A stretch of DNA of 22,465 nt, taken from a virus. The notes beneath the pieces are model-generated. The model searched no databases. It saw nothing but the letters and a program-made list of their open reading frames with translations, and was not told where the DNA came from. The position numbers and the translations under genes were made by a program. Position 1 is the stretch's first letter, and each line of letters begins with the position of its first letter. The DNA lies in the IMG/VR virus record IMGVR_UViG_3300047564_000284, positions 1 to 22,465 of that record. One strand, written 5' to 3'. Of the stretch, positions 1 through 17,990 are shown piece after piece.

Positions 1-389
1 GTTGCAGAACCTGCAGTTTGTGTTTTAGCACCACCAGCTAATGTTGCGTTGTTTCCTGTGTAACCAGAACCACCGCCACCGCATCCGCCAGATGCACCCA
101 CACCTGCTGATCCACCATAACCACCACCATTAGCGGTAAAAGTTGAAGCAAATGAACTGTTAGTTCCATTGGTATTAAGGGCTCCGCCTCCACCAATATT
201 AATACTATATGAAGTACCAGCAGATGGAGCAAAACTAGCATGATATACAAGTCCACCAGCACCACCACCACCTGATGCGGTTCCACCACCGCCACCGCCA
301 GCAAGTAAAATAAATTCTGTAGTTGGTGTTACACCTGCAATTGCTGTATTAAACTTTACTGTAGAACTTTTTAATCTATTAGCAGCCAT
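1..389 (-). CDS. Glycine-rich tail/adhesin-like protein (partial, 3' end beyond window)
   Basis: The gene starts at ATG 389-387 and reads open for 129 codons to the left edge with no stop, so its C-terminus is missing. The product begins MAANRLKSSTVKF and becomes glycine-rich (LLAGGGGGGTASGGGGAGG, then repeated GGG runs separated by Ser/Thr/Asn). The stop TAA of the preceding gene shares one base with this ATG (TAATG), so translation is probably coupled. It resembles its upstream neighbour (both open with a short RLKS segment, then a beta stretch, then AGGGxGG), suggesting tandem duplication. Glycine-rich domains of this kind occur in phage tail-tip and adhesin proteins; in T4-like phages, glycine-rich gp38 adhesins bind the receptor. 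A role in host recognition is inferred from composition and position next to the fibre gene. Confidence 0.75.
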   Translation of the reverse strand, partial: MAANRLKSSTVKFNTAIAGVTPTTEFILLAGGGGGGTASGGGGAGGLVYHASFAPSAGTSYSINIGGGGALNTNGTNSSFASTFTANGGGYGGSAGVGASGGCGGGGSGYTGNNATLAGGAKTQTAGSA

Positions 390-1285
390 TAGATTGTTAT
401 ACTCCCACTTCCAGTAAATTTATAATAACGATAACCGCCTGATGTAACGGTACTTGGTGAACCTGTTGTGCTTGTAGCAGCAGCAAATGTAGATGGATAA
501 CGAATTAATACAATTCCACTTGCGCCATTAGCACCGTTAGCACCACCGCCACCAGTGTTAGCACTACCTGCACTGCCACCTGCAGCACCACCATTACCAC
601 CACCGCCTTGACCGCCAGCACCAGCGAAGCTGTTAGCTCCGCCTCCACCACCACCAGCTAAAAATAAATTATCTCCTGATGATGTAGCACTACACCAATC
701 TGCATAAAGAATTGTTCCAATTCCACCTTGACCACCTTGACCAGCAGATACTCCATACAATCCATGTCCGCCAGCACCTCCACCGCCACCGCCAGCTTGT
801 GGTTCTGTTTGCCAGATTCCAGCACCGTGACCACCCATGAAACCTTGACCAAGGATTCCAGAGCCACCAATGCCTCCGCCAACATTTATGTTGACAGCGT
901 GAGTAGATTGACCTCCACCACCGCAGCCACCGTTTTTACCGTTGACTTGAGTAGCATCGTTGTCGCCTCCTCCACCTCCACCGCCACCGCCAGTGGCGGT
1001 TACGGAGCCAATAGTTGAGTTGCTTCCATTGTTACCTTGTTTGCTTCCAGATACAAAAGTTCCACCAGCACCAACCGTTACAGTAACTGCTGAACCTTTT
1101 GCTAATGGAACGGACGATGAATACCTTACTCCACCTGCTCCACCACCTGCGCCATAGTAACCAGCAGAAGCTGATGTTCCACCTGCTCCACCACCTGCAA
1201 CTACAACGACTTCAGCAACAACACCGTTTATAGAGGACTGGTCCCAAAACTTAGGCTTGTTGGATTTTAGTCTTGTAACCGACAT
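389..1285 (-). CDS. Glycine-rich domain tail protein, putative receptor-binding adhesin
   Basis: 298-aa protein. After about 28 ordinary residues (MSVTRLKSNKPKFWDQSSIN) it becomes a long glycine-rich domain: VVVVAGGGAGGT, a run of nine glycines near residue 100, then many GGxGG blocks. It closes with GIVLIRYPS and a C-terminal YRYYKFTGSGSITI, the usual end of the glycine-rich domain family in phage tails. The opening VVVVAGGGAGG and the IRYP end are the diagnostic pair. A strong Shine-Dalgarno (TAGGGGGAAACA) lies just before ATG 1285. It sits between a small structural protein and a second glycine-rich gene, downstream of the tail fibre. Likely a surface-exposed tail component that sets host range, but no receptor can be deduced. 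Proline-rich frames on the opposite strand are only the complement of its glycine codons. Confidence 0.85.
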   Translation of the reverse strand: MSVTRLKSNKPKFWDQSSINGVVAEVVVVAGGGAGGTSASAGYYGAGGGAGGVRYSSSVPLAKGSAVTVTVGAGGTFVSGSKQGNNGSNSTIGSVTATGGGGGGGGGDNDATQVNGKNGGCGGGGQSTHAVNINVGGGIGGSGILGQGFMGGHGAGIWQTEPQAGGGGGGAGGHGLYGVSAGQGGQGGIGTILYADWCSATSSGDNLFLAGGGGGGANSFAGAGGQGGGGNGGAAGGSAGSANTGGGGANGANGASGIVLIRYPSTFAAATSTTGSPSTVTSGGYRYYKFTGSGSITI

Positions 1286-1847: not shown

Positions 1848-1867
1848 CTTATGCTCCCATCAATAAG
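1638..1867 (-). repeat. Repeated gene-end / ribosome-site motif
   Basis: Two near-identical segments lie at 1638-1658 and 1849-1869 (19 of 21 positions match). Each encodes the last residues of a protein (FLLIGA and FLLMGA), its TAA stop, and the GGAG ribosome site for the next gene. Differences are mostly at third codon positions (CTA/TTA, ATA/ATG). Either a duplicated gene end or selection on the peptide and ribosome site would explain it. Confidence 0.7.
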
Positions 1868-3630
1868 AAGATATCTGCTTTAGGATCTGAGGCAACAGAT
1901 ATTGTTCCCCATGTTGCTGATGTTCCATTGGTTGTTAAATATTTTCCACCATTGCCAGTTTGTGAAGGCAGGGCATCAACTGTTGCCCATGATGCAGCAA
2001 TACCATTGGTAGTAGTTAGATACTTACCAGCATTGCCAGTCATTGATGGAATAAAACTAGCAGCAGTTGTTGCACTAGCTTCAGCCGATGATGCAGAGGT
2101 TGCTGCAGATGATGCAGAAGTAGCAGCGGAAGCAGCACTAGTTGCTGCTGCAGTTGCTGAAGTTGCTGCATTAGTTGCAGACGTATTTGCCTGGCTTGCA
2201 TAAACACCAGCAGAACCTGCAGATGTAGATGCGCTTGAAGCCGAGGTAGATGCTGCTGCAGCAGATGTGGCTGCAGCCTGTGCATGATACTTAGCAGAGA
2301 ACTCTCCGCCTGCTACTGCGCCAATTGTCTTGGTTGCCCAGTCGTTTGCTAATGTTGCGGATGCGGTTGCATCTGTCGAACTTGACGCTGCTGCCGTAGC
2401 ACTAGTTGCTGCACTTGCAGCACTAGTTGCTGCACTTGCAGCAGAAGTTATTGCTTGACCAGCGGAGGTGGTTGCTGTTGCTGCAGATGAAATAGCCGTA
2501 GCAGCAGAAGTACTTGCTGTCGCTGCGGATGCAGCAGCTGCACTAGCTGATGTTGCTGCGCTAGATGCGCTAGTGGCTGCAGATGTAGCAGACGATTGAG
2601 TATTTGTTTGTAGTGAAGATAATGAAATCCATGTACCTGTGCTTGTATCGGTATCTGTAATAGATCCCATATCTCGAACAAGACCAGAGGCAACCTGCCC
2701 TGCAACAGATGAAGCAGAACCAGCAGCAGATGATGCTGATGTTCCTGCAGATGTTGCGCTGGTTGCTGCTGCATTTTGTGATGCAAGAGCAGCAGATGCA
2801 GATGCTGCTGCGCTAGTAGCACTAGTAGCAGCAGAGGTAGCAGAGGTAGCAGCGGATGTAGCAAAAGTTGCTGCGCTTGACTGTGATGTATTGGCTGCTG
2901 TTGCCGATGCTGCAGATGATGTAGCACTGGTTGCTGCTGCCGTTGCACTGGCTGCTGCTGAAGTAGCAGAGGTCGCTGCAGAAGATGATGATGTTCCAGC
3001 ATTCGTTGCTGCAGTAGATGCACTTGAGGCAGAAGTAGCAGCCGAAGTTGCTGAGGTAGCAGCACTGGCTGCGCTTGTTGCTGCAGCAGTTGCACTGCTT
3101 GCAGCAGCGGTAGCAGATCCTGCAATCGCTGTTACGTATGCCAAGTTGGCTGCATCACCAGATGTTGTTGGTGTTGCTACGTTTGTAATCTTGTAGTTGT
3201 TAGCGTTGATTACACCAGCAGCGGTGATGATTGCTGCAGATAATGTCTTGGTTCCAGTAAGTGTTTGTGCTCCACCAGTACCGACGACATCACCACTAAT
3301 ACCGTGAATATCTGTGGTTGCAACTTCGTGTTGGCGAGACTCGGTAAAGTCTCGAGCCGATACACCGTGTTCAACGTTAGCACCGAAGGCGTGTGCCTTA
3401 GCACCTGATGAGTCAATGTTACGAGTGATCTGGTAGGCAGAACCTACCAGACTGGTGACTTCGACTACTTCTTCGTTTGCTGTATCCTTCTCAAGAATCA
3501 GAGTGTATGGATACTGTGCAGGAAGATTGCTTGCAGCAGCAAGCGTTAAGCTTGTTGCTGATGAACTGATCGATGCAGCAAGAGTTGTCTTGGCTGCGTT
3601 CGAACTATAGTAACGTGCTGGAGTTGGCAT
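1849..3630 (-). CDS. Tail fibre protein with long Ala/Ser/Thr coiled repeats
   Basis: 593-aa protein. Residues 1-110 form a beta-type N-terminal domain (TTLAASISSSATSLTLAAAS, EEVVEVTSL, ITRNIDSSGAKAHAFG, HGVSARDF) of the sort that joins fibres to the tail. Residues 125-150 carry LTGTKTLSAAIITA, common in phage fibres. Residues about 170-315, 344-425 and 450-525 are almost only Ala, Ser and Thr in seven-residue units (SAATSAT-like), as in lambda side-tail fibres and probably forming a trimeric coiled rod. Breaks occur at 316-343 (GSITDTDTSTGTWISL) and 427-450 (NDWATKTIGAVAGGEFSAKY). The end holds two copies of a TGNxGKYLTT...W motif (530-550 and 557-575). Upstream, the preceding gene's stop lies inside the ribosome site AGGTGA. 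No chaperone or enzyme domain is seen. Confidence 0.9.
   Translation of the reverse strand: MPTPARYYSSNAAKTTLAASISSSATSLTLAAASNLPAQYPYTLILEKDTANEEVVEVTSLVGSAYQITRNIDSSGAKAHAFGANVEHGVSARDFTESRQHEVATTDIHGISGDVVGTGGAQTLTGTKTLSAAIITAAGVINANNYKITNVATPTTSGDAANLAYVTAIAGSATAAASSATAAATSAASAATSATSAATSASSASTAATNAGTSSSSAATSATSAAASATAAATSATSSAASATAANTSQSSAATFATSAATSATSAATSATSAAASASAALASQNAAATSATSAGTSASSAAGSASSVAGQVASGLVRDMGSITDTDTSTGTWISLSSLQTNTQSSATSAATSASSAATSASAAAASAATASTSAATAISSAATATTSAGQAITSAASAATSAASAATSATAAASSSTDATASATLANDWATKTIGAVAGGEFSAKYHAQAAATSAAAASTSASSASTSAGSAGVYASQANTSATNAATSATAAATSAASAATSASSAATSASSAEASATTAASFIPSMTGNAGKYLTTTNGIAASWATVDALPSQTGNGGKYLTTNGTSATWGTISVASDPKADIFLLMGA
2055..3123 (-). 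repeat. Ala/Ser/Thr codon repeat tract in tail fibre
   Basis: Low-complexity DNA encoding the fibre rod, made of variants of a 21-base (seven-codon) unit rich in GCA/GCT/ACT/TCA codons. Most copies have diverged, but at least one pair is exact (2399-2440). The tract is interrupted twice by ordinary coding sequence. Such arrays are prone to gain or loss of units, which would change fibre length. Confidence 0.8.
2399..2440 (-). repeat. Perfect 21-bp tandem duplication
   Basis: The 21-base unit at 2399-2419 is repeated exactly at 2420-2440. It equals one seven-residue step (Ser-Ala-Ala-Ser-Ala-Ala-Thr type) of the fibre rod. Perfect identity within an otherwise diverged array suggests a recent duplication. 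Confidence 0.85.
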
Positions 3631-3633
3631 TCA

Positions 3634-4533
3634 TCACCTCTGGTACTGGATTATGTTGAGGAAGTTGGCTTGCTGCTTTGCAACCTCTTCCGCAAGGCGG
3701 ACGGAGTAAAGCTGGAAAAGATATTTAGCAGCAGTGGTAGATGCACCAGCAGATACTGGCTGATCTAATACGTCCGCTGAAACTGATGTGGCAATTACCT
3801 TGCCTGGGTCTACTGTTGAAAGTAGTCGATACATTGCACCAAGACGAACAACATCTTCACATGATTCTGGAAGACCGCTTGCTGTCAATTGCTGGTTAGC
3901 TGTAATAGTTGTTGGGAATGCTGTGTACTGCACGTTGACACGAGCACCAGCCATAGGTGCTTCGTTGAGAACGATAGCCTGACCATATGTATTTGTATCT
4001 TCGTCATAGTAGTTGGTATCAATACGCCATCTCTTAATAAGAGCCCATACTCCAGTTGCGTCTGGCAGTTCCCATGAGACACCAGTGATGTCTTCTAAAT
4101 CATCTGGCAATGAGTATGCGTATTGTGAACCAGTAAAGTCAAAGTTTGTTTCTTTAATAACTGGGAAGTTCATTCCTTTAATTGTTTCAAGCATTGCTCG
4201 CTTGACCTGAGTTCTTGGGAACAAAGGATTGTTTCTTACAACCGAACCAGATACATGGCTGGTTGCTGAAGTTCCACGCCATCCACGTCCTACTGGATTC
4301 TGCGCTGTTCCAAGGATTGAAAGAGTACCGCTTGATGCAATAGACTTCTTTACATACAGAAGCTCATCGTCAATCTCAATGATTCCCTTGCTGATAGCAG
4401 AAGCATCATCAACTGCGATAGATAGATCATCAGCGTCAACAACGTTTAGTGCAATCGTTACCGACTCTTGGTTGCGGACATAGCCATTGATCTCGCCAAG
4501 CGTTTGTTCTGTTAATTCGTTTAACGTAGCCAT
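3634..4533 (-). CDS. Putative head-tail adaptor / tail tubular-like structural protein
   Basis: 299-aa protein. Residues about 23-103 form a beta domain with the pattern GIIEIDDELLYV ... GTLSI ... GRGWRGTSATSHVSGSVV, widespread in tail proteins of aquatic phages. The middle (NFPVIKETNFDF, YSLPDDLEDITGVSWELPD, NVQYTAFPTT) is beta-rich, and the C-terminus is helical (CEDVVRLGAMYRLL, then YLFQLYSVRLAEEVAKQQ). This mix, and the position after the capsid cluster and before the fibre, fits an adaptor joining portal and tail, comparable in place to T7 gp11. I do not see a decisive signature, so 'structural protein' is safe and 'adaptor' is inference. The ATG overlaps the previous stop by one base (TAATG). 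One cysteine (residue 225) is present. Confidence 0.7.
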   Translation of the reverse strand: MATLNELTEQTLGEINGYVRNQESVTIALNVVDADDLSIAVDDASAISKGIIEIDDELLYVKKSIASSGTLSILGTAQNPVGRGWRGTSATSHVSGSVVRNNPLFPRTQVKRAMLETIKGMNFPVIKETNFDFTGSQYAYSLPDDLEDITGVSWELPDATGVWALIKRWRIDTNYYDEDTNTYGQAIVLNEAPMAGARVNVQYTAFPTTITANQQLTASGLPESCEDVVRLGAMYRLLSTVDPGKVIATSVSADVLDQPVSAGASTTAAKYLFQLYSVRLAEEVAKQQANFLNIIQYQR

Positions 4534-7278: not shown

Positions 7279-8862
7279 TTATACGTCAGCTTTTTTAGCA
7301 CGACGTCCGAGAGACGTCGTATCAATTGCTGACTTTTGTGCAAACATTGCACGTTCTTTAGAAGCAAGCTGTTTCTTCTTTATAGTGACATCTGAGCCAC
7401 CAGCAAGAGCAAGTCCTTCACGAGCAAGATCTTGTTCTCCAGCTTGTTCACCGTATAGACCCATGAGTCTGCGGTAATCTGCTTGATCTGTTGCTGCCTT
7501 CTGGAATACACCTTCTGCTTGAGCACCTTTGCCTGCTTTGTAAATCTCTTCAGAAAATGCTTTGTCTGATAGCTGGTTAGCACGTAGTGCAGCACCACCA
7601 ATTTCAGCAGCACCATACATCTCTTGGGCTTCTGCTGTTGTATACTTAAACTTAGAGTTAATAATATCAAATGCTTTTTCGCTATCAAGAAGATAGGCAG
7701 CCATTTCGCCTTCGCTCATACCGTAGTAATTTTTAAGCGCATCCTTGGTTGCTTTGTCTGCATTCTGTAATGCATTACGAGCAATGTTGACACGGTCTGT
7801 CAATTCAGCTGCGCTGACAGAGTTTTCGATAAGACGACGGAAGTCGTCTTGTGTATCGTAGAAACCACTTGGTAGTCCAGCCTCAGCCATAATCTTTCTA
7901 TAGCCAGCCTCTGCCTGAATGTATTCAAATGGTGAAAGAAGTTTGTCACCAGGGCGACCTTTGCCATCCTTCATACGTGCAGCGATTGTTTCGTTTGCAG
8001 CAAAGCGAGTCTTGTACGCATCGCTATCATAAATACTATTCATGATCTGAGCATCAGTAGGCATGATGTTATCTTCATATACCTTATCAATGGATTTCAT
8101 TAATGAATCCATAAAGTCTGCACCAAGACCAGTGTTCTCAAACATCTTGAGAACTGAATCACGAGCACCATAATCCTTGTATGTGTCAACCATGTTACCC
8201 ATGGTTCCGTCTGACATAACTTGCCAGACTTCTACAACTCCACCAGTTTTACGAATAGTCTTTTCGTATGCAACTGTCTTTTCTACTGGCTTATCAAAAG
8301 TTGCTTTCATTGCATTAATTTGATTAAGAAGATCTGCAATTTGTGTATCAACTGCAGCTGTTGCTGCGGTTACTGGGTTAATAGGAGTGCTTGTATTGTA
8401 AGATGTGCTAAATGTAGATGTAGCAGTGCTAGTAGAAGTACTGGTAGAAGTAGCAGTACTGGTAGCAGTAGAAGTTGCAGTGCTAGTAGCAGTAGATGTA
8501 GCAGTACTTGTTGTAGTAGATGTAACTGGCTCTGAGGTAGTTGGAGCAGAGGTAGTAGGTTTTGTACCTTTTACCCCCTGACCAGGATCAATAACAATTT
8601 TTGTTCCTGACCAAATCATATTACCGTCGTTGTATTTAGGATTGTTCATGATTGCAGGATTGATTGCTCTAATCTCTGCAAGCGTCATATTGTTATCTTT
8701 AGCAATTTGAGAAAGAGTATCGCCAGGTTTAACTGTAACCTTAGTTGGTGCTACATAAGGAATAGCTGCTGCTGCTTCTCTAGCAGCTGCTGCTTTTGTT
8801 TGTTCATCAACTACTGAATTTACCAGTGTTGAAAAAGAACTTGACCATTCGTCGCGTGGCAT
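7279..8862 (-). CDS. LysM-domain internal/virion protein (527 aa)
   Basis: Residues 41-92 are a LysM peptidoglycan-binding module (VTVKPGDTLSQIAKDN, then NPAIMNNPKYNDGNMIWSGT). Residues 100-160 are a Thr/Ser linker with repeated TSTA units. The remaining ~360 residues are mostly helical and unlike any enzyme I know (VAYEKTIRKTGGVVEVWQV, then many Ala/Glu/Lys helices, GEQDLAREGLALAGG near the end). No hydrolase motif is visible, so it should not be called an endolysin. It follows another LysM gene after a 4-base gap and precedes the scaffold leader. The family context suggests an internal protein delivered with DNA, or a tail-associated cell-wall anchor. No cysteines. ATG 8862 has GGGG about 9 bases upstream. 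Confidence 0.8.
   Translation of the reverse strand: MPRDEWSSSFSTLVNSVVDEQTKAAAAREAAAAIPYVAPTKVTVKPGDTLSQIAKDNNMTLAEIRAINPAIMNNPKYNDGNMIWSGTKIVIDPGQGVKGTKPTTSAPTTSEPVTSTTTSTATSTATSTATSTATSTATSTSTSTSTATSTFSTSYNTSTPINPVTAATAAVDTQIADLLNQINAMKATFDKPVEKTVAYEKTIRKTGGVVEVWQVMSDGTMGNMVDTYKDYGARDSVLKMFENTGLGADFMDSLMKSIDKVYEDNIMPTDAQIMNSIYDSDAYKTRFAANETIAARMKDGKGRPGDKLLSPFEYIQAEAGYRKIMAEAGLPSGFYDTQDDFRRLIENSVSAAELTDRVNIARNALQNADKATKDALKNYYGMSEGEMAAYLLDSEKAFDIINSKFKYTTAEAQEMYGAAEIGGAALRANQLSDKAFSEEIYKAGKGAQAEGVFQKAATDQADYRRLMGLYGEQAGEQDLAREGLALAGGSDVTIKKKQLASKERAMFAQKSAIDTTSLGRRAKKADV
8385..8532 (-). repeat. TST/A minisatellite encoding Thr/Ser linker
   Basis: Short tandem variants of 6-, 12- and 18-base units (gta/gca/gtg/gaa triplets on the plus strand) encode the repeated TSTATST linker behind the LysM module. 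Copies are imperfect. Copy-number change would alter the spacing between the wall-binding module and the rest of the protein without shifting frame. Confidence 0.7.
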
Positions 8863-8866
8863 CTAT

Positions 8867-10090
8867 TTACCCCAAGAATCCGAAGTCGCGGAGAATAGTA
8901 TTTGCGATACCTGTCTTCTCCTCTTTTGCCCAACTTGTGAAATCAGAGTTGGGAGAACGGCGAGCCATCTTCTTTGTGTCATAAAGGTTCATCGTTGTTA
9001 CATTTCCCTTTTCATCTGTGTAGTTAAGTGCTCGCTGTACGAATGGGTTATTAAGATCCAAGGTAGTTGGATCTACTTCCCATACTCCAGCAATGGAGTT
9101 AAGCCATGGATCTGCTGCTTGGCGCAGTGTTTGTCCTTGTGATAACTGGTTAGTTAATCCAGGGAACATAGACATTGCTTGCTTTTGAAGTTCATTATCA
9201 ATATCTTCTGCATTAGTTGTACCAGCGATAAGACCTTTCATGCTGTTCTCAAACCATCCAGCAAATCGTTCATTGGACATGCTTGAATCAAATCCATATT
9301 CAGCTGCCCGCTTATAAAGTTCTTGAGCTACAGTCTCTAGTTTTCCAGTTAAGTTGTAGATCTGCTTGCCACCGATTGTGCTCTTCTTGCTAAAGTCAAT
9401 TGAGTTAGCCATAATCTTATTAAGAAACTCTTGGTCGTAACGAACAACCTTTCCAGATGCATCAATAATTACTGACTGCATTAATTGCTGTGCGTAGTCA
9501 ATAGCTTGCGCTGCTGTAATCTGAATGCCGTTACCCATAAACTGCTTAACAATATTGCTTGCATTTAATTGTAAGTCTGCAGCAAATTGACCTGGGTTAG
9601 TTTCTTTAGCATAAACAAACTGACGTTGTTTATCTGTCTGATTCTTATACCAAAGTGTTCCTTGAATCATCTGAGTCATCAATGCCTCAGATGTAATTCC
9701 TTGGCTTAGGATCTGGTCAAGAACATTTTTAAGACTTGAGTCTGCCCCAATAATACCAGCAGCAATTCCAAACTTTGCTTGCAATGTAGCCATGTCAAGC
9801 TTATCAACATTAGTAAGAGCTTGTGTTGATGTAGATGTACTGGTTACAGTACTAGTCCCAGTACTACCAGTATTAGTTGCGCTGTTTACTGCTGTACTTA
9901 AACCAGTTGTTGCACCAGTTCCTGTTGGAAGCTTAATGGTTGTTCCACTAAAGAGAGTGCTTCCACCGTTGTACTTTGGATCGTTTTTTAATACTGGGTT
10001 AACAGCAAGAATTTTTGCTACAGTTGTTCCGTTGGCAGCAGCAATCTTGCTAAGCGTATCGCCAGTTTTAACCGTTACCTTATCTGCCAT
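8867..10090 (-). CDS. LysM-domain internal/virion protein (407 aa)
   Basis: LysM occupies residues 4-55 (KVTVKTGDTLSKIAAANGTT, NPVLKNDPKYNGG, FSGTTIKLP), followed by a Gly/Thr/Ser linker (56-95) and a helical C-terminal part of ~310 residues of unknown function (QGTLWYKNQTDKQRQFVYAK, QITAAQAIDYAQQLMQ, FAGWFENSMKGLIAG, LRQAADPWLNSIAGVWEVDP). The last pattern (helical, with W/F residues) resembles internal proteins of other phages but is not diagnostic. The start ATG 10090 overlaps the upstream gene by 11 bases, with AGGT 9 bases upstream. No cysteines and no catalytic motif. Its LysM is clearly related to those of the next gene and of the gene at 16461-17990, so these are paralogous modules. 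Confidence 0.8.
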   Translation of the reverse strand: MADKVTVKTGDTLSKIAAANGTTVAKILAVNPVLKNDPKYNGGSTLFSGTTIKLPTGTGATTGLSTAVNSATNTGSTGTSTVTSTSTSTQALTNVDKLDMATLQAKFGIAAGIIGADSSLKNVLDQILSQGITSEALMTQMIQGTLWYKNQTDKQRQFVYAKETNPGQFAADLQLNASNIVKQFMGNGIQITAAQAIDYAQQLMQSVIIDASGKVVRYDQEFLNKIMANSIDFSKKSTIGGKQIYNLTGKLETVAQELYKRAAEYGFDSSMSNERFAGWFENSMKGLIAGTTNAEDIDNELQKQAMSMFPGLTNQLSQGQTLRQAADPWLNSIAGVWEVDPTTLDLNNPFVQRALNYTDEKGNVTTMNLYDTKKMARRSPNSDFTSWAKEEKTGIANTILRDFGFLG

Positions 10091-10907
10091 CGCCGATTAC
10101 CTGTCCAATCGCATTAGGATCTTTTAATAACTTCTCAACAAGACCTAAAAATGTATTGGCTGCAAATGATTCTGCGTAGTCTGGTCGAGACATTGCAAAG
10201 TTACGAGCAAACATTGTTGGATCAAATCCAGTTTTTGATGTTTGATTTGTTGTAGATGTTCCTAATGTATTTTTTCCTTTAGGAGCAGTCGTTGTTGTTG
10301 ACCCTTCAGTTACTGATGGATCTTTCTTTGCTGCAGCATTGACGCCCTTTTTATATGCATCAATTTCAGCTTGTGTCGCTCTGCGACCAAGTCTGCGCTC
10401 CATCTCATCACTGATCTGCTGAGCAGCAGCAGATCCGCTGTACTCAGTTATCTGTGTATTCTTGAATCCTTGTGTGCCATATCGTGGTCCGCTTGAACTT
10501 GATTCAAGATCTCCAGGACGCAATAGGTTAAAGTAATCAACTGGGTTTCCGTTACCAGTTCCTGGTGACTGAGTCCAGTCGACCGCTCTTTTCCAGAGAC
10601 CATCTACTTCTTTATCTGTTACCTTGCGACCAAGGTTATATTCAATACCAGCCTTAAGGATGCCGTACTTCTTGCGATCATTTACTCGAAGCGCAGCAAG
10701 TGCTCTAAGTGCTTGTGTAGAACCACCTGGCACTGGCATTGGCTGACCGCTTGCATCTGTTATCCAAGGAAGATAGATAGGGGCGATGTCTGTTTCAACA
10801 TTAGTGTAAGGATTAGGACCTGAAAAAGTTTTACCATTATTGAAATCGTATGGGTACTTATCTTCACTATCTGGAATGCCATCGTAATCGCTGTCTTTTT
10901 TAGCCAT
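10080..10907 (-). CDS. Virion-associated protein with N-terminal Ca-binding repeat (275 aa)
   Basis: The first 16 residues include DSDYDGIPDSED (residues 5-16), which matches the calcium-binding DxDxDGxxDxxD of thrombospondin type-3-like repeats. The next parts have no recognised fold: PIYLPWITDASGQPMPVPGG, a helix (ALRALAALRVNDRKKYG), NLGRKVTDKEVDGLWKRAVD, and near-repeat RLGRRATQAEIDAYKKGV (both 'LGRxxTxxEvd' helices). A Ser/Thr/Lys linker follows, then a helical tail (FARNFAMSRPDYAESFAANT). ATG 10907 overlaps the 1660-aa gene by 8 bases (ATGGCTAA). Position inside the internal-protein cluster suggests an ejected or tail protein. No cysteines. The calcium site is by pattern only. Confidence 0.75.
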   Translation of the reverse strand: MAKKDSDYDGIPDSEDKYPYDFNNGKTFSGPNPYTNVETDIAPIYLPWITDASGQPMPVPGGSTQALRALAALRVNDRKKYGILKAGIEYNLGRKVTDKEVDGLWKRAVDWTQSPGTGNGNPVDYFNLLRPGDLESSSSGPRYGTQGFKNTQITEYSGSAAAQQISDEMERRLGRRATQAEIDAYKKGVNAAAKKDPSVTEGSTTTTAPKGKNTLGTSTTNQTSKTGFDPTMFARNFAMSRPDYAESFAANTFLGLVEKLLKDPNAIGQVIGDGR

Positions 10908-13900
10908 TAGGGACTGCCACCTTTTCTATATCTAGTTCTGGCATTGATTCAAGCCAACGCGCAGCAAACGCTGCGAATCCATCGCTTGCGCCTTGTACGA
11001 ACTTGTAATGAAAGTTATTCAAAGAAGAAGAGAACCCTTGGTCTCTTGCTGTTGTTGAGCCAAGCTTTCCGTAACCTGATCGGAACTGTTCTACTTGACC
11101 AATCCAGAATGAAATCTCAGCCCACTTGCCACCATCAATTGGATCAACATACTTGCGCCAAGTTGGATCGTTAGCAATCTTCTTTAGTATTGGGAATGTT
11201 TGATCCCAGAACTTTCCTTGCTGCACGGTACGGTCATTAACCCATCCTGGGTAGTTAGCCTTAATCTCAGCAACTCTTTCATCAAACTTTCTTTTGATTC
11301 CAGTGTATGTATAAGCATTGCTCTGAGTTGAGCCAACTCCGTACTGAGCCATTTCGCCGTTACGTGCATCAACTGCCATGTTGTAAGAGACCCAACCAAG
11401 ACGAGCATCTGTCTCGTTTCGAATTTCTTCTTCAGTCTTCTGACGTGAAAGCTTTGTCATTGTTCCAGGAAAGTTTAGGTTCTTGTATATCTCAGCAACT
11501 TCTGTTGAGTAATCAACAGCAAGGTCGCCGTAACCGCTTGACATCATACGTGCGTACATTGGGTCAACGTTTGCAAAAGATGCAAGAAGTTCACGGTTAC
11601 TACGAATCATCTTGATATCACTTATTGTGGATGCAACTCCAGCAATATTCTTTTGGTGTGAACCTAGGAATGCTAGTCCGTCGATTCCCCAGTCTTTCAT
11701 CATTGCTCTATCAGCAGCTGCATAATCGCTGTTGTTCTTTTCAAGTAAGTCTGCGTAGTATGCTTTAGCTGCTCTAGTTACTGGGTCAAATGTTGTAGAG
11801 ATTGGCATATTGAACTGAACAATTGCCTTAATTAAGTTAAGGTTTGAAGCAGCTTTTCCTGCTTGTTCAATTGTTGGAGCATTACCAATGCGACCGTCAC
11901 GATGCCATTCTGCATAAGCAACCTGCCAGTTGGTGAACACCTGATCCATGTATCGTTCACCTGTTGGGAACAACGACTCCATGTAGGCTGGCTTAATAGC
12001 ATTAACTGCTGTTGCTGCAAGGTTACTTCCTGATGTTACGTAACCACCGTAGAGAATACTATTTTCGTAGAAGTCGTCACCAAATGTATTACGTAGGTAG
12101 GACACAACCTTTTCACCATCTGGTGTCTTCCACAATGGTGTGTCAAGTTGACCCTTGATAAGAGATGAAACAAGAACACTGCCAAACCAAGCAACGCTTG
12201 GGTCTGCAATCATAAACTCCATCTGCTTTGGATTCCATTTAAGTCCACCACCACGAGTATCTGTGTATGGTTTTAAGGCTGCTGCTGCAGCCTTTCCAAT
12301 TCCTGGAATGTTTTCAATCTTTGTTGTAATGCTTGCTGGGATCGGGTATGTAACAGATACCACAGTTCCTGGAGGAACATCAATCATTGACTTGTATGTA
12401 TTTCCTTCTTGGTCAACATACGGTTCAAAGTTAGCAAGAGAATCAGATACACTGTTATACCAGTAAGCGTTCATTGGGTTCTTAGCCATAAGCTTGAGTG
12501 CTACTGCCTGGCTGTTGAAGAACGCCATTGGGAACGCCATTGCATAACGTGCTGCATACATTCCGTTAGTTAGACGACGTGATGAGTAAAGAGTCTCTTC
12601 AATTCTTGACACTGCATTACGCATTGCAATCTGACGGAACTGATGATTGACTACCACATCAGATGGATCTACACCAGTACGACGAGCGGACTTGATTAGG
12701 TATTCCATTTCTTCTTTTGCGTAGATCATAAACATTGGGTTACGAACTAACTTGTTTTCAGCAGCACCTAGTAGACGCCATGCTGTTCCCTGAACGTTGG
12801 CAACTCGTGATACGAGTCGCTCACCTTTGCTTAGATCTGACAGACTTACGTTAGGTCCATCAATTTCTGGAAGAAGATCTGCTCGAGACTTAAGGAAATT
12901 TTCTACTTCCTTAACTGTTACTGGTCGCTCTAAAGCGATTCTGCGTAATTCTTCACTTGGTACAAACTTTTGAAGATAAGCACTTGTCTCGCTTGTCCAT
13001 GACAAAAAGTCATCTTGCGTAAGAGTTCTTCCAGCATCAGATGACATACGGCGACGGTATTCTTTACCAGCCTCTGTCTTATAAAGAAAGTTCATGATTG
13101 CTTGATCTGATTCACCACGAAGCATCATGCCGAGAGGCATGTCAAGTTCCTGACGAATCTGACGGTTAAGCACGTGAGCGATAGCGTTGTAATACGCCTT
13201 GCCATCTTCGCGCTTTACTCTTACCCATTGCTGGCTACGAGCACGAACATTCATAGATGCTTCTGATTCAAATAGCTTTGAATACAAACTAGATGCTGAA
13301 TCAATCTCGTCTAGATATACAGCTGCACCGCGAACGTTAGGATCACCAAGACCCTTAATGTTGTAATCCTTACCATCAACTGTAATAACATCTGCTTCTT
13401 TACCAATGTACTTACGTTGCTTCATGTCGCCTTCACGGCGAATTGCGCCTGCGACTTTTGCTCGGTTCTTTTCAATAAGAATTGATAAGCCAGTTACTGC
13501 ATCAGATGCAAGCTTGGCTTCGTTAGAAACCTTTGTATATTCATTCTGAGCCAAATATAATTTATAGTCAGCGTCATGCTTAGCAGATGTAGCAGCTGCT
13601 TTCTTAGCTGGAGTTGCTGCCTTTAATGCAGCTTCTGCTGCATCAGAGTTGGCTTTAGCTGTTAACCATAATGCTTCAGCATCTGCTTCAACCTTGGCTG
13701 TTGATTCCATTTTTCTAATCATTGGATCTAACTTGCCATAGGCAATGTCAATGTCTTTAAGAATTGCCTGCTCTGCTTTGCGAGAAGCAAAGCTTGCTGT
13801 TCCTGGCACATATCGATTCATTAACTTGAATCTATTTGCAGAATTTTCTACCATATTGCCAAAGCCAGGGATCGCATTACGTGCTAACTCTGTGCTTTCA

Positions 13901-15882
13901 AGAGCCATAGAACCACGCATAAATGGATCGATGATTGCGTTCTTTGGGATATATGCAACACGCAATAGGTTCAAGTTGTTGAACACCATGTTAGCAATAT
14001 CTAGGAATTGACCTGCCTGCATGCCATACTTGCCCATGTATGTGCGAGCAACTGTTCCCTTACCGATACCAGAACGTACGCCTGCGCGTTCACGTGTTCC
14101 TAAGATAACTTCCATTTCAAGTTTGCGGAAGTCAAGCATTGGTACGTTGTTAACTTCAGTTGTTTGTGAACGAAGTTGAATAATGTTAAGGCTGCCATCT
14201 TCATCTGGGATAAGACCCTGCTTTTTGGCAAACTCTGCTGCCGTTGTACGACGAGAATCTGCTGCTTTGTGAAGTGTTTCAACCATCTTGATAAGTTCTG
14301 CATCATCACCAATGCCACCGATTGAGCGAACGTTGTATTGCTTCGCAAGGCGAAGCATAACTTCCTTCTCAATGGCAACTAATACACGAGCTTGTTCGCT
14401 ATTAGTTGTGGCAGAAAGAAATCTTTCAGCCATCTGACGCTTGAACATTTCGCCTTGCTTACCCTTAAGGAACTGAAGACGATTGAGTTCTGAAAGAACA
14501 TCGTTAACCGCTTCACCCTTACGTGGGTTAGAAAGATTGATGTAACCTTGTGGACGCGCATCTCCTGTCCATGTAATAACACGAACTATGCGGTCATATG
14601 GTGAAGATTGGTATACCTTTGTACGCCATCCATCTTTAGTTGGATCGCTACCAAAAATCTTTGCGCTGCCGTAGCGAGCACCTTCACGTACCTTGTTAAG
14701 AGACAGTGCTGCTGACTCAACCATTCCGAATCGCCCTGGTACATAACCAGTTCCGCGATCACCAATGTTTGCTTTGCTTGCCCAGTCGTCTAACTGTGCA
14801 GCAAATGCCTTGTCTTTAGACTTAAGGTCGTTAATAATTGCTTGGTATCGTGGTGCTAAGTTCTCTGTGAGAACTTCATCATGAATCTTGCTCCAGTCAC
14901 TGACTGGGCTGAAGTCTTTGAACCCATAGTTGTCAAGATGGTCAGCACTTAATGCTTGCTTCTGCATGAATCGGTCGAATGCTGCTGCATCACCACGTTC
15001 TGCCTTGAGATAATCAGCAAGATCTGCGTGGTTGTCGATACGAGAAACAATTGTTGCCGTACGTAGTGGGTTATTTGTCTCAGCAATAAGAGGGTTAGCC
15101 TGTAAACGCTGAACGTTACGCTCTTTAACCGCATCATCCATGTAAACAGCAAGACCGCTTGGGGCTGTGTCTAGTTTTCCACCAGCTGCCCACTGAACAG
15201 CCTCATCTGCCTTAGCAGAGAACTGTTGCATGTCCTTTTCGGTAACGATTCGTGAAGTTCCACGTACTTTTTTCATTGCTTCTTTTGTAGCAGCACCTGC
15301 AACCTTGCTCATTACGCCATTGATAGCAAGATCTGTAGCACCAGATGAAACAATTCCTATGAACTCATCACGGAATGCTTTATCTCGTTGCTCTTTATCA
15401 AAGATATTAAAGTCTTCTTTAGCAACTGTAGGTAAAATGCTTTGTGGTAACGGCAAGTTGCCCAATACGTTTCTTGAAACAGCCTGACCCATTGAGATAT
15501 TCTTGGATTCATCGACTGCCAACTGGAAAGCTTTAGGAATTGCAGATAACCCGCTACCTTTTTTCTGTGCTTCCAATGCTTCTGGTAGCAATGCTGTTGT
15601 AGCAACAACACGTTGTGCTGGTTGGATAACATTCTTGTATGCATATTCCATTGTGCGAAGTGCAGGGTTAACAATAAATCCTAGTGGACCTTTTTGCGCC
15701 TTCTCAATTTGCTTACCAACGAATGGAAGAATCTTTTCTTCTACGCCACCGACCTTAGTTCCGTCATCAAATGTACTCTTCTTAAAAGAATCTACCTTTG
15801 ACAAAGGTTTTTGTGGTACTGGCTGTCCGCCAACTGTTGCGCCTAGACCAGAAAAATCAAATGGTTGTCTGTTGTCCGCCAC
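10900..15882 (-). CDS. Large internal virion (putative ejection) protein, 1660 aa
   Basis: The largest gene in the window. It starts at GTG 15882 (MADNRQPFDFSGLG), supported by AAGGA 8 bases upstream. I see no enzyme motif; the protein is mostly alpha-helical with a Lys/Ala/Glu-rich coiled stretch at about 725-830 (AEAALKAATPAKKAAATSAK). Around residue 650 it has LLRVAYIPKNAIIDPFMRGS and near 1110 FNSQAVALKLMAKNPMNAYW, segments I associate with very large actinobacteriophage virion proteins. No cysteine occurs in all 1660 residues. Size, helicity and place between portal and capsid fit an internal protein that enters the host with DNA, like T7 gp16, but without its transglycosylase. A tape measure is less likely as no tail-tube genes are seen. 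Confidence 0.75.
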   Translation of the reverse strand: MADNRQPFDFSGLGATVGGQPVPQKPLSKVDSFKKSTFDDGTKVGGVEEKILPFVGKQIEKAQKGPLGFIVNPALRTMEYAYKNVIQPAQRVVATTALLPEALEAQKKGSGLSAIPKAFQLAVDESKNISMGQAVSRNVLGNLPLPQSILPTVAKEDFNIFDKEQRDKAFRDEFIGIVSSGATDLAINGVMSKVAGAATKEAMKKVRGTSRIVTEKDMQQFSAKADEAVQWAAGGKLDTAPSGLAVYMDDAVKERNVQRLQANPLIAETNNPLRTATIVSRIDNHADLADYLKAERGDAAAFDRFMQKQALSADHLDNYGFKDFSPVSDWSKIHDEVLTENLAPRYQAIINDLKSKDKAFAAQLDDWASKANIGDRGTGYVPGRFGMVESAALSLNKVREGARYGSAKIFGSDPTKDGWRTKVYQSSPYDRIVRVITWTGDARPQGYINLSNPRKGEAVNDVLSELNRLQFLKGKQGEMFKRQMAERFLSATTNSEQARVLVAIEKEVMLRLAKQYNVRSIGGIGDDAELIKMVETLHKAADSRRTTAAEFAKKQGLIPDEDGSLNIIQLRSQTTEVNNVPMLDFRKLEMEVILGTRERAGVRSGIGKGTVARTYMGKYGMQAGQFLDIANMVFNNLNLLRVAYIPKNAIIDPFMRGSMALESTELARNAIPGFGNMVENSANRFKLMNRYVPGTASFASRKAEQAILKDIDIAYGKLDPMIRKMESTAKVEADAEALWLTAKANSDAAEAALKAATPAKKAAATSAKHDADYKLYLAQNEYTKVSNEAKLASDAVTGLSILIEKNRAKVAGAIRREGDMKQRKYIGKEADVITVDGKDYNIKGLGDPNVRGAAVYLDEIDSASSLYSKLFESEASMNVRARSQQWVRVKREDGKAYYNAIAHVLNRQIRQELDMPLGMMLRGESDQAIMNFLYKTEAGKEYRRRMSSDAGRTLTQDDFLSWTSETSAYLQKFVPSEELRRIALERPVTVKEVENFLKSRADLLPEIDGPNVSLSDLSKGERLVSRVANVQGTAWRLLGAAENKLVRNPMFMIYAKEEMEYLIKSARRTGVDPSDVVVNHQFRQIAMRNAVSRIEETLYSSRRLTNGMYAARYAMAFPMAFFNSQAVALKLMAKNPMNAYWYNSVSDSLANFEPYVDQEGNTYKSMIDVPPGTVVSVTYPIPASITTKIENIPGIGKAAAAALKPYTDTRGGGLKWNPKQMEFMIADPSVAWFGSVLVSSLIKGQLDTPLWKTPDGEKVVSYLRNTFGDDFYENSILYGGYVTSGSNLAATAVNAIKPAYMESLFPTGERYMDQVFTNWQVAYAEWHRDGRIGNAPTIEQAGKAASNLNLIKAIVQFNMPISTTFDPVTRAAKAYYADLLEKNNSDYAAADRAMMKDWGIDGLAFLGSHQKNIAGVASTISDIKMIRSNRELLASFANVDPMYARMMSSGYGDLAVDYSTEVAEIYKNLNFPGTMTKLSRQKTEEEIRNETDARLGWVSYNMAVDARNGEMAQYGVGSTQSNAYTYTGIKRKFDERVAEIKANYPGWVNDRTVQQGKFWDQTFPILKKIANDPTWRKYVDPIDGGKWAEISFWIGQVEQFRSGYGKLGSTTARDQGFSSSLNNFHYKFVQGASDGFAAFAARWLESMPELDIEKVAVPNG

Positions 15883-16460: not shown

Positions 16461-17990
16461 TTATTTCTTTGGAAGTTTTACCTTTGTACCAGCCCAGATC
16501 ATATTTCCACCCTTGTACTTAGGGTTTGTCTTGAACTTGGTATTAGCTGCTAGAAGCTCGGAGAGCTTCACGCCTGAATTTTTTGCGATAGCAGAGAGAG
16601 TATCTCCGCGCTTTACAGTATAAGAAGATGTTGTAGATCCTCCTGGACCTGGTGTTACACCAGCAGCTCCGCCTTTTGCTCCACCTTTTGCAGAACCCGC
16701 AGAGCCAGCAGAACCTGCTCCTCCAGCTGCACCCGCTGCTGGGCGTGTCTTAGAACCACCCTTGTATGCAGCAGTTCCTGGAACAAGGCTTTCACCTCTA
16801 GGACCATAACGCAATCCCTTATTAGCTTTAGCAGTTTTCTGTTGCTTATACTTAGCAAGTTTCTTTTCTGCTCTATCTGCAGCTGTGCCGACATCTTCGC
16901 CAGCAAGACCCATAGTTACATATCTAGCAAGTTGCTTTGCTGAAGTTGGAAGTGATCCAACTGCTGCTCCAGCTTTTTCTATTGGGTTACGGTTACGACC
17001 CTTTTGTTCGTAGAACAAATCTGCTTCAGCCTGAGCCTTACGCTTAGATCCTTCAACCATATTCTTGGCATCAAATGTTGCAGCAAGTGCTCCACCAATA
17101 AGACCAAACTTTCCTGCCTTCTTAAGTTTGCTTCCTTTTTTAACAACAGTATCGCTGCCAGGGATTGGCTTTGCCTTTACATCAATAGTACCTGTTCTTT
17201 GGCTTGCGACTTCACCCTTTGGACGAATTGCAATTTCCTTGGAACCTGAAAGCTTGCCTTGCTTAATTAGTTTTTCTTGTGTCTTCTTTAAGTAGTCATC
17301 TTCCATCTGTGTAAGTGATGCATCAGTTGGACGTGCCATCTTTGGCGAACTAGACTTCTTAGTTTTTGGTGCAGTATCTGTCTTAGCTTTTGGTGATTCA
17401 GTTTTCTTAGCTTCTTTTTCTTGTGCAAATAAAGCTTTGTTCATTGCCTTCTTAGGTGCAACGCCTTCTTTAACAAGAGCATCGTAGCGAGCCTGACCAG
17501 TTGCGTTAAGAGTCTTACCAGCTGAATAACCTTTAGTTGCAGGCTTCTTTGCAGATGACTTCTTCGCAGACTTCTTCTTTAATCCTGGCTTATTAACCTT
17601 TGGCTTTGTCTCAGTAGGTGCTTCTACAGCAGCAGGAGTAGACGCTTTTGCAGCGGACTTCTTTGCTGGCTTTTCATTCTTAGCATCTTCTGCTTCATAC
17701 ATACGATCAACTGCTGCCTTAGCCTCACGGCGATCACGGAGCATACGCTCTTGAGCAGTCTCTGTAGGCTTTTGGAAAACCTTATTGCCTTTATCATCGG
17801 TAATGTAATTACCGCGAGCTTCTTTCTTTACTTCTGAAAGAACCGCTCTATCTTCAGCAGACACCTTTGCCATAGGGTCACGGCGTACTGCCTTTGTCTT
17901 TCCACTTGTGAAAGCTCCCCTGGCGTCGGCAACGGCAGCTTTACGCGCCTGCTTAAACTTCTTAGGAGCTTTCGGTTTCTTCGCTGCCAT
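16461..17990 (-). CDS. Histone-H1-like basic protein with C-terminal LysM domain (509 aa)
   Basis: Residues 1-230 are Lys/Ala/Pro-rich, like histone H1 tails (AKKPKAPKKFKQARKAAVAD, KPAKKSAAKAS, KKKSAKKSSAKKPATKG). The middle has basic helices and one short hydrophobic stretch (GKFGLIGGALAATF, near 295). A Gly/Ala/Ser linker (about 415-455) leads to a LysM module at 455-509 (YTVKRGDTLSAIAKNSGVKL, NPKYKGGNMIWAGTKVKLPK), which binds peptidoglycan-type sugars in known proteins. The module is the C-terminal end here, but the N-terminal end in the two LysM genes downstream. A basic DNA-binding part plus wall-binding end suggests a protein packed with DNA and acting at entry; this is inference. ATG 17990 has GAGGATAA upstream. 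No cysteines. Confidence 0.82.
   Translation of the reverse strand: MAAKKPKAPKKFKQARKAAVADARGAFTSGKTKAVRRDPMAKVSAEDRAVLSEVKKEARGNYITDDKGNKVFQKPTETAQERMLRDRREAKAAVDRMYEAEDAKNEKPAKKSAAKASTPAAVEAPTETKPKVNKPGLKKKSAKKSSAKKPATKGYSAGKTLNATGQARYDALVKEGVAPKKAMNKALFAQEKEAKKTESPKAKTDTAPKTKKSSSPKMARPTDASLTQMEDDYLKKTQEKLIKQGKLSGSKEIAIRPKGEVASQRTGTIDVKAKPIPGSDTVVKKGSKLKKAGKFGLIGGALAATFDAKNMVEGSKRKAQAEADLFYEQKGRNRNPIEKAGAAVGSLPTSAKQLARYVTMGLAGEDVGTAADRAEKKLAKYKQQKTAKANKGLRYGPRGESLVPGTAAYKGGSKTRPAAGAAGGAGSAGSAGSAKGGAKGGAAGVTPGPGGSTTSSYTVKRGDTLSAIAKNSGVKLSELLAANTKFKTNPKYKGGNMIWAGTKVKLPKK

Follow-up and report, generated by a model that had tools for sequence, protein, structure and literature searches.

The window analysed here, a whole linear virus record of 22,465 bp, encodes on its minus strand, in this order, a terminase (PHROG 38), a portal (PHROG 104), internal proteins, a capsid protein, an adaptor, a 593-aa fibre, an Mtd_N protein, YKV109 and two glycine-rich proteins, GlyA and GlyB. 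The adaptor-like protein (3634-4533; phrog_7578, E 1.7e-97; SU10_adaptor, E 3e-5, just below cut-off), which also served as a query for gathering relatives, and the Ala/Ser-rich tail fibre of 593 aa (1849-3630; phrog_38058 tail fiber, E 1.5e-65) form a constant left border of the region. They are followed by a stand-alone Mtd_N protein of 69 aa (1638-1847; PF18454, E 8.7e-15), which has this domain in common with Mtd, and by the 109-aa YKV109 (1305-1634; phrog_1276, E 2.8e-8). YKV109 also matches the tail-fibre families phrog_11338 and phrog_693, and its homologue in Pontimonas phage phiPsal1 is annotated as a putative virion structural protein. The C-terminal peptides of the fibre (..FLLMGA) and of the small Mtd_N protein (..FLLIGA) are similar, and the same F(L/M)L(M/I)GA pattern was seen at L235:4566-6245; it is possible that these termini represent a common assembly or docking end.

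GlyA (389-1285, minus strand; 298 aa, 32% Gly; phrog_2295, E 3e-35) and GlyB (3-389, minus strand; 129 aa) share one base between stop and start codon. Both match PHROG 2295 as well as Gly_rich_2 (PF21722; E 3.7e-11 for GlyA and 2e-8 for GlyB, both exceeding the curated cut-off). This is in agreement with the first-pass annotation, which had described two adjoining glycine-rich genes with RLKS-type starts and GGGxGG-rich bodies, the second of them running off the window; indeed, GlyB reads from 389 to 3 and is truncated by the contig end. The same annotation had placed the array at the end of the tail module, but what ends at that position is merely the contig. Another contig (fetched as L002, L130 and L155), which shares a 1768-bp overlap with the window at full identity, continues the array leftward with a complete GlyB of 290 aa (L002:1380-2252), a 126-aa gene, a third glycine-rich copy of 304 aa that we call GlyC (PF21722, E 5e-20), two 82-aa genes, a 168-aa gene and a 639-aa protein. 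The 126-aa protein belongs to PHROG 7759, and the 168-aa protein weakly resembles VanY (E 0.088, below the cut-off). A stretch of 6861 bp of this continuation is present without a mismatch in a contig from another sample. Counting copies leftward, as the annotation had suggested, thus extended the window's own array to three.

The three-copy order is also found in L062, L168, L181 and L003. Altogether, the 234 loci that we gathered contain 143 distinct glycine-rich groups, 91 of them away from locus ends, and 33 of these 91 have two or more copies (25 have two, 7 three and 1 five; the other 58 have one); these fractions are not population frequencies, because glycine-rich, adaptor, YKV109 and 126-aa queries were used to collect the loci. 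Further copies therefore exist both in the window's array and, as arrays of two to five, commonly among its relatives. At the edge of a 130-kb contig (L007:3426-7576), five glycine-rich heads stand in a row, the last of them cut, and several begin with M(N/E)IGxGIxxGxGI.

The RLKS-type start turned out to be part of a conserved N-terminal tag of ~16-24 residues. Its canonical form is MAISRFSNSxIxxGFPKYQxFWDQ in the first position of an array (slot 1) and MAIRKFSTSSIKxGSKSSKFWDQ in the second (slot 2). The window's own tags, residues 1-20 of GlyA (1226-1285, minus strand, starting MSVTRLKSNKPKFWDQ) and of GlyB (330-389, minus strand, starting MAANRLKSSTVKFN), are shorter than the canonical ones and have poorer profile scores: E 4.4e-5 with the slot-1 profile for the L002 copy of the GlyA gene and E 4.1e-9 with the slot-2 profile for GlyB, values that are not independent as both genes are in the training set.

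To score position specificity, we took the 24 arrays with two adjacent complete copies and omitted L041, L007 and L129, which represent other phage types or tag classes. In the remaining 21 arrays, the nearest neighbour of the first 24 residues was the same position of another array in 40/42 cases (swap permutation 0/2000), while for the bodies it was the same position in 23 cases and the other position in 18. When the near-duplicates and near relatives L163, L027, L165 and L003 were also omitted, the 17 non-redundant arrays gave the same result for the tags (32/34 same position), with 15/34 same and 18 other for the bodies (permutation 1885/2000), and 13/34 same and 17 other for the C-termini. 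Residues 9-24 alone still matched by position in 30/34 cases, and the signal is therefore not one of start-codon context. One might argue that the copies are redundant duplicates acting in one homo- or mixed oligomer whose N-termini have merely drifted, which would fit their common Pfam family and a body identity of ~50% (a value inflated by glycine). Drift, however, fails to explain why N-termini match by position across 17 divergent arrays while the bodies show no such signal, or why the same N-termini are found on laminin-G and LYGI heads (see below), and we consider this explanation very unlikely.

We then ran the tag profiles, which had been trained on glycine-rich genes only, on 3924 distinct ORF N-termini. 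At E<=0.01 this yielded 67 tagged ORFs, training members included, whereas 1085 internal segments and the 3924 reversed N-termini gave no match at E<=0.05. The body was not glycine-rich in 13 of the 67 tagged ORFs: two have Laminin_G_3 domains (Pfam E 7.5e-13 and 8.6e-12), one (L108) is laminin-G-like by eye only with no Pfam match, eight carry a C-terminal pattern for which we coined the name LYGI, and two are without assignment. Although 17 of the 22 arrays in which both tags reached E<=1e-6 were loaded Gly/Gly, we also observed laminin-G/Gly (L167), Gly/LYGI (L064), laminin-G/LYGI (L124) and LYGI/LYGI (L107, L127 and L065) combinations. One tagged gene, L127:12802, has a slot-1 score although its position is slot 2; it was treated as slot 2 in the junction and slot-crossing comparisons. 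LYGI heads also occur as triplets of one tagged gene and two untagged paralogues (L107:4134-7463, L127:11134-14434, L106:13863-15466, L124:13883-15526 and L235:8321-9917), followed by a 72-75-aa gene with the motif ..AEAKLAALGLT.., an arrangement that suggests asymmetric hetero-trimers.

At the DNA level, the change from one head type to another is abrupt and falls where the tag ends. Between L167 (laminin-G) and L169 (Gly), identity is 90% upstream of the gene and 95% over its first 75 nt, and then drops to 57% over the following 90 nt and 53% over the 150 nt after that; the corresponding values for L064 (Gly) and L065 (LYGI) are 95, 88, 51 and 55%, and random gene starts give a mean of 53% with a 95th percentile of 60%. 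No other of the 366 different-head pairs is as close as these; across all of them, identity averages 61% within the tag and 50% immediately behind it. Such high similarity across unrelated heads, which includes upstream bases, could mean that the conserved 5' end is only an anchor for DNA recombination or a translation signal rather than a docking peptide, and it may indeed also serve as a crossover region. Yet, synonymous sites in the tag diverge widely while its amino acids are kept. Taken over all pairs (limiting the calculation to tag pairs with at least 50% identity biases the estimate), pN/pS was 0.35/0.63 in slot-1 tag codons against 0.61/0.59 in slot-1 codons 26-43, and 0.43/0.57 in slot-2 tag codons against 0.57/0.59 in slot-2 codons 26-43; between the two tag classes it was 0.55/0.67. 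The low pN relative to pS in tag codons implies that the peptide itself is conserved. Together with the position specificity that lies beyond the start-codon context, this makes a role as a mere DNA or translation signal decidedly unlikely in our view.

Relatives with an adaptor 91-92% identical to that of the window bear different heads at the corresponding site, which agrees with the variation between relatives that the first-pass annotation had anticipated. These relatives have a left border (adaptor and fibre start) and a right border (82-aa-type genes, the 168-aa gene and the 639-aa gene) in common, and what lies between these varies: L054 has two-slot glycine-rich genes, L052 has one glycine-rich protein of 577 aa, and L057 has runs of genes for ~170-200 aa. 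Judged from these alignments, the stretch between adaptor/fibre and the 82-aa-type genes is an exchange site. Bodies also appear in either slot: among 57 glycine-rich bodies, blastn matches of at least 90 nt were about as frequent within slots (120) as across slots (115), with 72% identity over 610 nt between the slot-1 body of L040 and the slot-2 body of L171, and 69% over 828 nt between slot 2 of L062 and slot 1 of L159. Head types nevertheless tend to agree between the slots of one array (body r 0.88), which indicates that head loading is not fully free.

Entire cassettes are mobile as well. The 86% identity between L163 and L170 is confined to the stretch from YKV109 to the 126-aa gene, while the flanks of L163 are related to L003 (73-75%). 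In L003, the portal belongs to PF04860 and the terminase to PHROG 9, while the window has a PHROG 104 portal and a PHROG 38 terminase, combinations that we take to mark siphovirus-like and podovirus-like phages, respectively. L003 nonetheless carries a three-slot cassette of the window's type, and its similarity to the window's array starts at YKV109 and stops at GlyC. After trimming of over-long called starts (copy 2 of L168/L181 and copy 3 of L003), bodies of L003 and the window's array were 70, 61 and 68% identical on slot, in conserved A, B, C order, as opposed to 43-55% off slot. By these comparisons, cassette transfer has occurred between phages whose terminases and portals differ.

The movement of bodies between positions could also be expected if the array were a store of variants in which a single copy is displayed and the others act as recombination donors, one of two functions proposed in the first-pass annotation. 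The C-terminal 42 residues of copies B and C of L062, which are 90% alike, fit this idea too. On the other hand, every copy possesses a start codon and a position-specific tag of its own, the tags are under purifying selection, the slot order is kept between the window's array and L003, and slots are occupied by tagged non-glycine heads for which a donor store has no need. We therefore regard a store of variants as unlikely, and silent cassettes find no support in these data; variation comes rather from the movement of heads, both from slot to slot and from phage to phage. The alternative offered in the same annotation, a hetero-oligomeric tip, is favoured by the complete tag on each copy, the position-specific tags and the fact that different copies stay side by side. 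We separately considered concerted evolution of C-termini within arrays, an idea that came from L118, L054 and L062, where copies in one array have C-termini in common. The signal was modest: 0.533 within arrays and 0.476-0.493 between arrays (pairing permutation 95/5000), and the nearest neighbour was in the own array in only 3/42 cases. For this reason, we do not claim concerted evolution except for L062 B/C.

To gain insight into the bodies, we examined an AlphaFold2 model of GlyA (pLDDT 89.4, pTM 0.87). Residues 1-20, which comprise the tag, have no predicted secondary structure and a mean pLDDT of 54-55, whereas later blocks reach 74-98 and the first strand begins at residue 21. The best match among solved structures was the Pam3 tail fibre gp24 (7ypx_A; Z 12.3, rmsd 3.3, 167 aligned, 35% identity), followed by a Bxb1 tail-tip protein (Z 12.2, rmsd 3.3, 167 aligned) and by the TNF-like/glycine-rich domains of ALK and LTK (Z 5-5.7); Foldseek E-values were weak (5.4e-3 for Pam3 gp24 and 1.9e-3 for Bxb1). 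The model of the 126-aa protein (pLDDT 92.1) had Pam3 gp25 (7ypx_a) as top match in both structure searches, the match falling in its client-binding domain, with a Foldseek E of 0.52 and Z 5.7 (rmsd 1.8 over 54 residues), each of which is weak alone. Since client and chaperone match two chains of one complex and the gene order is preserved, the 126-aa protein is nevertheless likely to be a gp25-type folding chaperone, as far as can be judged from the predicted models. A glycine-rich gene ends within 300 bp upstream of 57 of the 75 testable 126-aa homologues; none was present there for the other 18.

The resemblance to Pam3, as described in the available portion of its report (7YPX; PMC9608196), would thus extend from a TNF-like plus glycine-rich body to the gene for a gp25-like protein directly downstream. 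Unlike in the system described there, which has a single fibre gene with an N-terminal helical docking domain, there are two to three copies here with tags of ~20 residues, and a Pam3-type N-terminal alpha-helical docking domain is absent from the GlyA model; likewise, the helical trimerisation domain of gp25 is not seen in the model of the 126-aa protein. Glycine-rich motifs also occur in the gp38 adhesins of the T-even phages S16 and PP01, which have variable segments at the fibre tip, but, according to the available part of PMC12892980, those proteins combine a beta-helix domain with a polyglycine-II sandwich, as opposed to the predicted TNF-like scaffold and tandem array of the window. S16 gp38 (6F45) was not among the matches listed for GlyA. 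Fold and genomic context suggest that the heads bind receptors. That they instead act on the surface of the infected cell or are secreted from it, for instance in superinfection exclusion, is most improbable, considering that the genes are located in the structural module, downstream of the tail fibre, that two virion tail proteins, those of Pam3 and Bxb1, rank first among the structural matches, and that no signal peptide is visible by eye.

Which protein might receive the tags can be approached from the genes upstream. Where a short Mtd_N gene directly precedes YKV109, the next gene was tagged in 28/28 loci, in contrast to 0/14 loci with a long Mtd_N protein (156-218 aa) and no YKV109; for YKV109 without a short Mtd_N match it was 5/30, and one of two cut loci was tagged. 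This association is confounded with phage lineage. At the corresponding upstream position, L003 has a 170-aa Mtd_N-collagen protein. Covariation did not single out a docking partner: in Mantel tests, tag 1 did not covary with YKV109 (r 0.08, 568/2000), tag similarity did not track the Mtd_N protein, and for tag 2 the correlation with YKV109 was 0.41 but that of the bodies was already 0.30. In a second scaffold type (L050, L052, L053, L057, L097 and L101), which has the Mtd_N protein of 156-218 aa and no YKV109, the next gene begins with other common peptides, for instance MPxIxTLAGGSA(K/R)GFG, whether the head is glycine-rich or LYGI; these starts are probably a further tag class.

Short attachment peptides are known from phages with several receptor-binding proteins per virion, such as KP32, K1-5, G7C and Menlow. 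According to the available portion of the review concerned (PMC6872550), second and further receptor-binding proteins of Klebsiella phages, K1-5 and G7C are attached through conserved N-terminal peptides of at least 7 residues, which differ per phage group and are followed by differing specificity modules, and the receptor-binding protein genes interrupt structural-gene synteny. The arrays described here appear alike in having a short N-terminal peptide before unrelated modules and in encoding several putative receptor-binding proteins together. In the branched systems of that account (PMC6872550), however, depolymerase spikes dock on a T4gp10-like domain of the first protein, whereas the present heads are small glycine-rich, laminin-G or LYGI bodies with one tag class per position, and no T4gp10-like domain was detected by Pfam and PHROGs profile searches of the 593-, 69- and 109-aa proteins. 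By analogy, we propose that the arrays work like the conserved-peptide branched systems of Klebsiella phages, with different head types and position-specific tags. The branched, conserved-peptide kind as such is already known; unusual are the slots that can be read from sequence, the mixed heads and the cassette transfer across phage types. In the open-access literature, we found no description of such arrays or tags.

Taken together, these sequence comparisons, predicted structures and analogies favour a receptor-binding cassette that has three slots, slot 1 being GlyA and slot 2 GlyB, with addressed, swappable heads, a reading to which we assign a probability of roughly 0.64. The cassette would comprise YKV109, GlyA, GlyB, the 126-aa candidate chaperone and GlyC. 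The sequences themselves show that each head carries a short conserved peptide tag that is specific to its position in the array and also precedes unrelated heads, that bodies pass between slots, and that whole cassettes pass between phage types. For the glycine-rich body, the prediction is a fold like that of the Pam3 gp24 head, which is TNF-like plus glycine-rich, probably in trimeric form, and the tag would remain unstructured until it docks at its own site at the tail-fibre tip, be it on YKV109 (the first gene of the transferred cassette and a candidate hub), the Mtd_N protein or the fibre end. One virion could then display two or three different heads simultaneously. Any head on the right tag would be displayable, and one recombination at the tag could shift host range while leaving the tail untouched. 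More tentatively, and at slightly less than even odds, this may amount to a plug-and-socket system: two to three distinct address tags of ~20 residues would define sockets on one tail tip, each of them loaded independently with unrelated folds (TNF-like/glycine-rich, laminin-G, or LYGI including asymmetric hetero-trimers), heads would be swapped at the tag, and cassettes would cross between podovirus-like and siphovirus-like phages of freshwater actinobacteria. If the three-slot reading holds, sequence alone could reveal the receptor-binding heads of uncultured phages, the number displayed and their interchangeability, and it would provide a concrete mechanism by which host-recognition genes turn over rapidly in relatives of the phages that infect the abundant freshwater Nanopelagicales.

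LanE43AprE7 and F5 are cultured phages of 'Ca. Planktophila' (PMC10202952), and the available portion of that report contains no account of their head genes. We found that both have the same architecture, with YKV108, two tagged glycine-rich heads, and one tagged LYGI head with two untagged LYGI partners, followed by a 74-aa AALGLT gene and a 128-aa chaperone homologue. They differ from the window in lacking a separate short Mtd_N gene and in their tag class (SLKTG...LLxGN), which the slot-1 and slot-2 profiles do not detect. This phage pair offers a system in which the proposed mechanism can be tested. Among phage records, the nearest terminases to that of the window are those of LanE43AprE7/F5 (46%) and then those of Streptomyces phages, and for this reason the host is probably an actinobacterium. 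An adaptor query of bacterial genome contigs returned no prophage relatives for host inference, and the slot-1 glycine-rich head of L054 matched no named phage by tblastn, where the low-complexity filter may hide matches. Elsewhere in the window, a 1660-aa protein (10900-15882) belongs to PHROG 10618 (E 4.1e-264) and had no tblastn match at E 1e-5 among 50,697 phage records. Finally, three proteins of the structural region (16461-17990, 8867-10090 and 7279-8862) each contain one LysM domain (E 6.2e-10 to 1.9e-8).
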